A stretch of 64,000 nucleotides of DNA from NCBI RefSeq assembly GCF_028596025.1, contig NZ_CP117167.1, positions 682,001 to 746,000 on the forward strand. Direction: 5' to 3'. The position numbers were made by a program, and so were the translations under genes. The DNA comes from Mucilaginibacter jinjuensis (GTDB lineage: Bacteria; Bacteroidota; Bacteroidia; Sphingobacteriales; Sphingobacteriaceae). The notes under the pieces are model-generated. The model did no database searches. It was not told the DNA's origin and saw nothing but the letters and a program-made list of their open reading frames with translations. This document shows, one piece after another, positions 12,837 to 13,416 of this stretch. The first letter of the stretch is position 1; each line of letters begins with the position of its first letter.

Positions 12837-12910
12837 TCCTGAGTAGCTCAGCCGGTTAGAGCATCTGACTGTTAATCAGAGGGTCGCTGGTTCGAGCCCA
12901 GCCTCAGGAG
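12837..12910 (+). tRNA. tRNA-Asn (anticodon GTT)
   Basis: The sequence folds into a full cloverleaf of 74 bases. The acceptor stem is TCCTGAG/CTCAGGA, the D stem GCTC/GAGC, the anticodon stem TCTGA/TCAGA with loop CTGTTAA (anticodon GTT), and the T stem GCTGG/CCAGC with loop TTCGAGC. The discriminator base is G and CCA is not encoded. A terminator follows directly. The 3' part is repeated in broken form at 13219-13276. Confidence 0.97.
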
Positions 12911-12913
12911 CAA

Positions 12914-12941
12914 AGCCCCGCACGTCCGCGGGGCTTTTTTT
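12914..12941 (+). terminator. Terminator of tRNA-Asn
   Basis: An 8-bp stem AGCCCCGC/GCGGGGCT with a 6-base loop and a T tract begins 3 bases after the tRNA. A near-identical copy lies at 13277-13304. Confidence 0.9.
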
Positions 12942-12945
12942 ATTT

Positions 12946-13223
12946 ATGAAATTTACGGTTTACATCTTGTATTCAGCGTCAATTGCAAAGTATTATATCG
13001 GTCAGACTCAAGATATAAATGAGCGATTAATACTGCATAATTCAGGAACATTTGCAGGTTCGTCAACAAAAGCAGGTATACCATGGGTAGTTTTTCACGT
13101 AATAGTATGTCCCAGGCATTAAAAATCGAAGATCATATTAAGCGTATGAAATCTGTAAAATATTTTCAATCACTTAATGCCTATCCAGAAATGTCCGAAA
13201 AATTAAAACAAAAATATAGTTAA
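12946..13223 (+). pseudogene. GIY-YIG nuclease gene with a frameshift, inserted behind tRNA-Asn
   Basis: The frame from ATG 12946 reads MKFTVYILYSASIAKYYIGQ and then TQDINERLILHNSG. This is the start of a single-domain GIY-YIG endonuclease (VYI...YYIG and a conserved R in the QxxxxR region). It runs into a stop after residue 57 (VCPRH). The next frame continues as SQALKIEDHIKRMKSVKYFQ..., the expected C-terminal half of the family, up to TAA at 13221-13223. The total of 278 bases is not a multiple of three, so one indel near 13110 breaks it. The stop codon lies inside the downstream copy of the tRNA anticodon region (AGTTAATCAGAG). Either a recent decay or a sequencing error. Confidence 0.75.
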
Positions 13224-13276
13224 TCAGAGGGTCGCTGTCCCGATAGCTATCGGGACGAGCCCAGCCTCAGGAGCAA
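13219..13276 (+). repeat. Broken second copy of the tRNA-Asn 3' half (att-like direct repeat)
   Basis: From 13219, GTTAATCAGAGGGTCGCT repeats tRNA bases 12871-12888, starting at the anticodon. In the T arm, GGTTC is replaced by the perfect 20-base palindrome GTCCCGATAGCTATCGGGAC (13237-13256), after which GAGCCCAGCCTCAGGAGC returns to tRNA sequence. Offset between copies is 348 bases. The copy cannot form a tRNA because the 5' half is absent. Confidence 0.9.
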
Positions 13277-13304
13277 AGCCCCGCATGTCCGCGGGGCTTT
13301 TTTT
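13277..13304 (+). terminator. Duplicated copy of the tRNA-Asn terminator
   Basis: The stem AGCCCCGC/GCGGGGCT with T tract is the same as at 12914-12941 except for one loop base (T for C). It is part of the direct repeat downstream of the GIY-YIG pseudogene. Confidence 0.85.
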
Positions 13305-13416
13305 ATACCTTTTATTTATTATGTGGCAGGTTGATAACAGTCACCACAAACTAAAACGGTAAACTTTCCTTTCTTTTTTCTTCACTACTTGTTGTTTATT
13401 AACGTTTGCATTGCTA

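Follow-up and report, generated by a model that had tools for sequence, protein, structure and literature searches.

How does a nuclease reading frame come to lie between a tRNA gene and a partial second copy of that tRNA, and can such an arrangement be a mobile unit? The question arises at the tRNA-Asn locus of Mucilaginibacter jinjuensis, in a stretch of 64,000 nucleotides (hereafter, the window) whose contig belongs to a 6.16-Mb genome; ARAGORN calls a single tRNA in the 64-kb window, tRNA-Asn(GTT). An initial annotation had taken the locus for a minimal mobile cassette, in which a GIY-YIG nuclease cuts the anticodon arm and the tRNA is made whole again by the 3′ half that the element carries. 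The features of the locus are listed in Table 1.

Table 1. Features of the tRNA-Asn locus (window coordinates)
Feature	Position	Strand	Remarks
tRNA-Asn(GTT), intact	12837..12911	+	ARAGORN and genome search; sole full-length match in the genome
Terminator hairpin and T run of tRNA-Asn, copy 1	12912..12943	+	
GIY-YIG nuclease pseudogene	12946..13223	+	Asn-type lineage
tRNA-Asn broken copy, first part	13219..13237	+	tRNA nt 35-53
18-bp perfect palindrome TCCCGATAGCTATCGGGA	13238..13255	.	Replaces T-loop GTT; TCC(C)G...C(G)GGA hairpin class
tRNA-Asn broken copy, second part	13256..13274	+	tRNA nt 57-75
Terminator copy 2	13275..13306	+	One mismatch

The duplication of the tRNA 3′ half and its terminator behind the nuclease frame was borne out. 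It comprises two direct repeats, one of 19 nt at 100% identity (12871-12889 and 13219-13237; spacing, 348) and one of 51 nt at 98% identity (12893-12943 and 13256-13306; spacing, 363), the latter taking in the terminator hairpin. The spacing shifts from 348 to 363 because the palindrome TCCCGATAGCTATCGGGA replaces the T-loop GTT in the copy; this palindrome occurs 14 times in the genome, compared with 0 occurrences of a reversed-pattern control. Since 70 nt are repeated with one mismatch and the same layout is seen at many other tRNA genes, a chance origin of the repeat is excluded. Pfam PF01541 (GIY-YIG) matches frame 1 of the nuclease (E value, 3.6e-8; 34 bits against a cut-off of 22.6), which is open for 58 codons from 12946 and meets a stop at 13122. 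The C-terminal half lies in a different frame, with about 10 nt absent relative to an intact relative (L091), and ends with the TAA at 13221-13223, inside the repeated GTTAATCAG, so that the stop codon does fall within the repeated anticodon region, as first noted. Thus, the assignment to the GIY-YIG family stands but the frame is broken: the window nuclease is a frameshifted pseudogene, and this copy of the cassette is dead or decayed. There is no integrase between the repeats: the 275 nt that separate the terminator from the tRNA copy contain the GIY-YIG frame alone.

Related arrangements are present elsewhere in this genome. Behind tRNA-Met come its terminator and then an intact 88-codon GIY-YIG gene, the stop codon of which sits within a tRNA-Met copy having TCCGCCCACCGGCGGA for the anticodon 3′ stem; another copy of the TCCGCCCACCGGCGGA type comes after the first, and two further copies lie upstream. 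The broken copy behind tRNA-Val (L002, C1:5704807-5705015) is an orphan: it has two hairpins and no nuclease. At a distance of 28 kb from the intact cassette there is a truncated tRNA-Met terminator with the start of a nuclease (L015, C1:5287718; L005, C1:5259241), as if an island had inserted between the two. As a separate observation, TCCCGANNNNNNTCGGGA occurs 27 times in this genome, compared with once for a control pattern, and its sites are also found inside other repeat families, for example, in place of the REP loop at L017 and L023.

Searching related genomes for a tRNA followed by a GIY-YIG frame and a second tRNA piece, as the initial annotation had suggested, revealed the layout at many tRNAs and in many species. 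Across the genus, GIY-YIG frames lie beside tRNA-Met, Asn, Leu(caa), Leu(taa), Val, Ala, Arg, and Ser, usually 35 to 55 nt past the tRNA and with a partial copy of that tRNA behind; at five loci (L087, L088, L091, L092, and L115) the order is reversed, from broken copy through nuclease to intact tRNA. Of 296 genomes from across the phylum, 194 were matched by a profile of the tRNA-type proteins, with up to 18 matches per genome. In the best 30 loci of this search, a tRNA was found within 300 nt in 26 and a partial tRNA copy in 27, and these fractions, taken from the top matches to the tRNA-type profile, hold for that branch rather than for all GIY-YIG genes. The phylum search added Asp and Pro, bringing the tally to at least 10 kinds. 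The point at which the broken copy starts varies among families, from tRNA nt 5 to 45, and units often stand in tandem, in arrays of two to five (two at L106, three at L078 and at L217, and five at L206); hairpin-marked copies without an adjoining nuclease also occur (L002 and L034). The recurring unit is a single-domain GIY-YIG gene with a 3′ (sometimes 5′) tRNA piece that has a TCC(C)G...C(G)GGA hairpin in place of one arm, and with a terminator copy, beside an intact tRNA. We read these tRNA-nested, hairpin-marked nuclease cassettes, of about 350 bp each, as a real class. At L214 (127-1440) there is, in addition, a long tandem run of tRNA-Asp bodies, three of them with anticodon GCC (read as tRNA-Gly), interspersed with hairpin-marked 5′ copies.

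The hairpin is a constant mark of the broken copies. A TCC[CG]...[CG]GGA hairpin lies near the nuclease stop codon at 43 of 74 tRNA-type loci, compared with 37 of 697 control windows (P = 1.6e-28); of 80 loci of the REP type described below, 6 have it. It occupies the anticodon arm in Val and Ala, the 3′ side of the anticodon in Met, the D-arm in Leu(caa), the T-arm in Asp, and the D-loop or T-loop in Asn, and its base is conserved across the phylum. Among 18 distinct Met hairpins, 97.2% of cells are paired, and 15 two-sided changes were counted, compared with 5.7 in shuffled data (0 of 500 shuffles as high). Stem changes are nearly all two-sided and G-U pairs are very few, a combination suggesting that the hairpin is maintained at the DNA level. 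Furthermore, stem classes are alike among copies in nearly every genome and unlike between species, which suggests turnover of units. These properties bear on the idea that the tRNA piece with its hairpin is transcribed and serves as a decoy or regulatory RNA with the nuclease as its partner, for instance, in phage defense. Copies at L089, L097, and L102 are indeed placed between the promoter and the tRNA, and their folding is good enough for a tRNA call; nonetheless, the arm that bears the hairpin varies among families, the hairpin stems are almost devoid of G-U pairs, and most 3′ copies have no acceptor 5′ strand, so that a role at the RNA level seems very improbable. ARAGORN calls hairpin-bearing broken copies tRNA-Stop, tRNA-Ile, or tRNA-Lys (L089, L097, L102, L209, and L210), and such false calls probably inflate the tRNA annotation of Bacteroidota. 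This matters for annotation: tRNA finders label such broken copies as tRNA-Ile, tRNA-Lys, or suppressor tRNAs, and nuclease frames run on into tRNA sequence.

The nucleases form a maintained, isotype-bound protein family. dN/dS values of about 0.08 (range, 0.07 to 0.15) indicate that intact tRNA-type nucleases are under purifying selection, and in their alignment (A2) the catalytic-type residues Y, Y-x-G, R, H, and E are invariant. When isotype labels were placed on the nuclease tree, 18 changes were needed, compared with a shuffled mean of 44.8 and a minimum of 40; the signal was weaker once pseudo-replicates were removed by dropping most genus members (15 changes versus 19.5; minimum, 17). 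By this measure, nuclease lineage follows tRNA isotype. The closest solved structures are those of UPF0213 proteins and of SLX1, a structure-specific nuclease (1zg2, 1ywl, and 7cq2). Proteins of the tRNA type are 80 to 95 amino acids long and consist of the catalytic domain alone, with no separate DNA-binding module. Their match to the NCBIfam model for group I intron endonucleases is far under its cut-off, and the enzyme of the cassette is a GIY-YIG nuclease in place of an HUH/Y1 transposase.

Occupied and empty sites were then compared, as the initial annotation had also proposed, and empty sites were found at both the tRNA-Asn and the tRNA-Met loci. tRNA-Asn exists in at least five states in the genus: the window type, shared by M. 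jinjuensis (G000) and G094 (L101, where the nuclease is also broken); an upstream type (L091 and L092); a type with a different nuclease lineage (L032 and L037); a hairpin-marked copy that lacks a nuclease (L034); and empty (L031 and L035). Of 30 tRNA-Met loci located by way of a neighboring conserved gene, most are empty, including that of the near relative G016. Thus, empty sites exist and cassettes sit at other tRNA genes, two things whose absence the initial annotation had named as arguments against mobility. The promoter-side terminator at tRNA-Asn is of the type found at empty sites, and in L101 the distal terminator alone differs; the cassette therefore seems to have entered next to the tRNA, bringing the broken copy with it, which speaks against the proposal that the element restores the tRNA with its own 3′ half. 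Downstream flanks at tRNA-Asn are not conserved among the genomes compared, which leaves the boundaries between occupied and empty states approximate. At tRNA-Met, nuclease identity between species (65 to 78%) does not exceed that of the neighboring conserved gene (about 79 to 83%), which fits vertical descent with loss, and this comparison gave no sign of recent transfer between species.

tRNA-Asn 3′ halves starting at nt 28 to 36 lie far from the tRNA in G011, G026, G017, G006, and G033, the pattern that attachment sites of large islands would give; the distal half of G011 is followed by a nuclease remnant. tRNA-Asn is thus an island target in several species of the genus, and the window locus might be conceived of as an attachment site whose island has lost its interior. 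We consider this origin barely credible: there is no integrase, the isotype-matched nuclease and hairpin copy are seen again in L101 and at other tRNAs, and the terminators of empty and occupied sites do not differ in type. A simple integrase scar was rejected on the first of these grounds and on the recurrence of the nuclease-plus-hairpin layout at many tRNAs.

The intact tRNA is identical at occupied and empty sites (19 of 20 for tRNA-Met, and likewise for tRNA-Asn), so a nuclease reading tRNA sequence alone would cut its own host; this weakens the claim that the enzyme cuts the anticodon arm. The same finding weighs on classical homing, in which the nuclease would cut the uninterrupted tRNA of a cassette-free genome, repair from a cassette-bearing copy would use the duplicated tRNA piece as homology arm, and the hairpin would make the copy uncuttable. 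Isotype-matched lineages, empty sites, and tandem arrays all fit this scheme, and phage SegB, a tRNA-associated GIY-YIG homing endonuclease, sets a precedent with its tandem amplification of a tRNA segment (PMC13096335). However, the host tRNA would be cut as well unless the site extended into the flank, as it may, and the downstream flanks are not conserved. Moreover, a protein of 80 to 95 amino acids leaves no space for the DNA-binding module of such homing enzymes, and a Val-type nuclease query found no match in the phage and plasmid collections searched. We therefore regard homing of this kind as unlikely, if still a serious contender.

Relatives of the cassette nuclease that are not associated with tRNA genes have hairpin repeats of another kind. 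In the M. jinjuensis genome, all six small non-tRNA GIY-YIG genes (L006-L011) have GTCA-tagged palindromic repeats on both flanks, and non-tRNA relatives from many phyla (L120-L199) have GTCA/CGTC-tagged REPs on both sides, with tags mostly outward. Using a scan with a 5-bp stem, adopted after a strict 6-bp-stem scan proved too narrow, GTCA REPs were detected on both sides of 48 of 75 testable nuclease loci, compared with 6 of 309 other open reading frames (P = 7e-35) and 7 of 1128 control windows. Inverted repeats between the flanks exceeded the 99th percentile of the 1128 control windows in 60% of the 75 loci (P = 2.8e-30), and none of the control tags CTGA, GACT, TGAC, and GTAG was enriched on both sides of the non-tRNA genes. 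No tRNA lay near any of 80 REP-type loci. The GTCA-REP test is unsuited to the tRNA branch, since tRNA sequence itself contains GTCA. REP stem type tracks the nuclease tree (22 changes versus 33.1; minimum, 29), with a contribution from taxonomy. Flanking repeats are direct in the tRNA branch and inverted in the REP branch, so the two may not work alike. On these sequence patterns, we regard the tRNA cassettes as belonging to a wider nuclease-plus-hairpin-repeat system, of which they form one branch and the biochemistry of which is presumed in both branches.

Membership in such a system also bears on a passive origin, namely, repeated tandem duplication of tRNA regions that happened to carry a small UPF0213-like DNA-repair nuclease, with hairpins arising by template switching. 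The repeats are indeed direct and tandem, relations between species look vertical, and the long array of tRNA copies at L214 would fit. On the other hand, each nuclease lineage is tied to a specific isotype, the base of the hairpin is kept throughout the phylum, and elsewhere this protein family is bracketed by REPs; a passive origin is, in our judgment, improbable.

Altogether, the class recurs at many isotypes in Bacteroidota and shows lineage-isotype match, purifying selection, covarying stems, tandem amplification, and empty sites; nuclease activity and mobility we infer. The best explanation for the window locus, to which we give an even chance of being right, is that it is a decayed member of this class, whose structure-specific nuclease acts on the marked tRNA repeat. 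The protein would be an SLX1/UPF0213-like enzyme that nicks DNA at the hairpin-marked repeat when the latter is single-stranded or extruded; repair against the neighboring intact tRNA or the sister chromosome would then duplicate or spread the unit of nuclease and marked tRNA, with one tRNA remaining functional throughout. The tRNA cassettes would be the tRNA-based branch of a wider system whose other branch uses CGTC-tagged REPs. Against this explanation, some marked copies are without a nuclease, identities between species fit vertical descent, the window copy is dead, the flanking repeats of the two branches differ in orientation, and the isotype signal weakens when pseudo-replicates are removed. 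Of the minimal mobile cassette first proposed, what holds is a tRNA-tied nuclease cassette without integrase, repeated in the same layout at other tRNAs and in other species; its nuclease in the window is broken, and its mobility is conjectural.

A literature search, mostly of open-access papers, found no paper that connects bacterial GIY-YIG genes with either REPs or broken tRNA copies, and the cassette class, which is widespread in Bacteroidota, is apparently undescribed. CGTC-tagged REPs have been published as elements without a dedicated transposase (Di Nocera 2013, PMC3733652). A candidate enzyme can now be placed beside these repeats, which have been without one in the more than ten years since they became known. 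Another branch of this enzyme family is lodged in essential tRNA genes, where each isotype has its own lineage. More tentatively, and with more doubt than confidence, this GIY-YIG family may comprise the missing mobilizing enzymes of a bacterial hairpin-repeat superfamily, that of the CGTC REPs, one branch having settled in tRNA genes, where one tRNA is kept functional while hairpin-marked copies multiply. If so, it would represent a new kind of selfish element, anchored on an essential tRNA gene.

Several known systems resemble the cassettes in part. The nearest proteins of solved structure, UPF0213 and SLX1, have to our knowledge no tie to tRNA genes or hairpin repeats. RAYT transposases with GTAG REPs likewise combine a small nuclease gene with short palindromic repeats on either side, which are also found without the gene, but the enzyme there is of the HUH/Y1 type, whereas here it is a GIY-YIG protein with CGTC-tagged REPs or hairpin-marked tRNA pieces. 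The repeats flanking non-tRNA GIY-YIG genes fit the CGTC/TGTC-AT... design of the CGTC-tagged REPs, with tags mostly outward, although the GIY-YIG link is absent from the report on them (PMC3733652). Integrative islands that target tRNA genes share the duplication of the tRNA 3′ end; in contrast, the cassettes have no integrase, measure about 350 bp, lie beside an unaltered tRNA and terminator, and contain a hairpin in the copy. SegB is a larger protein than the cassette nucleases. It is the best functional precedent, being a free-standing GIY-YIG homing endonuclease of phages T4 and T6 whose gene lies beside tRNA genes and which drives tandem amplification of the segment containing tRNA and nuclease (PMC13096335). 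SegB is phage-borne and has no isotype preference, whereas the cassettes are chromosomal, encode the catalytic domain alone, keep to one isotype per lineage, and are flanked by a hairpin-marked partial copy of the tRNA beside which they lie.
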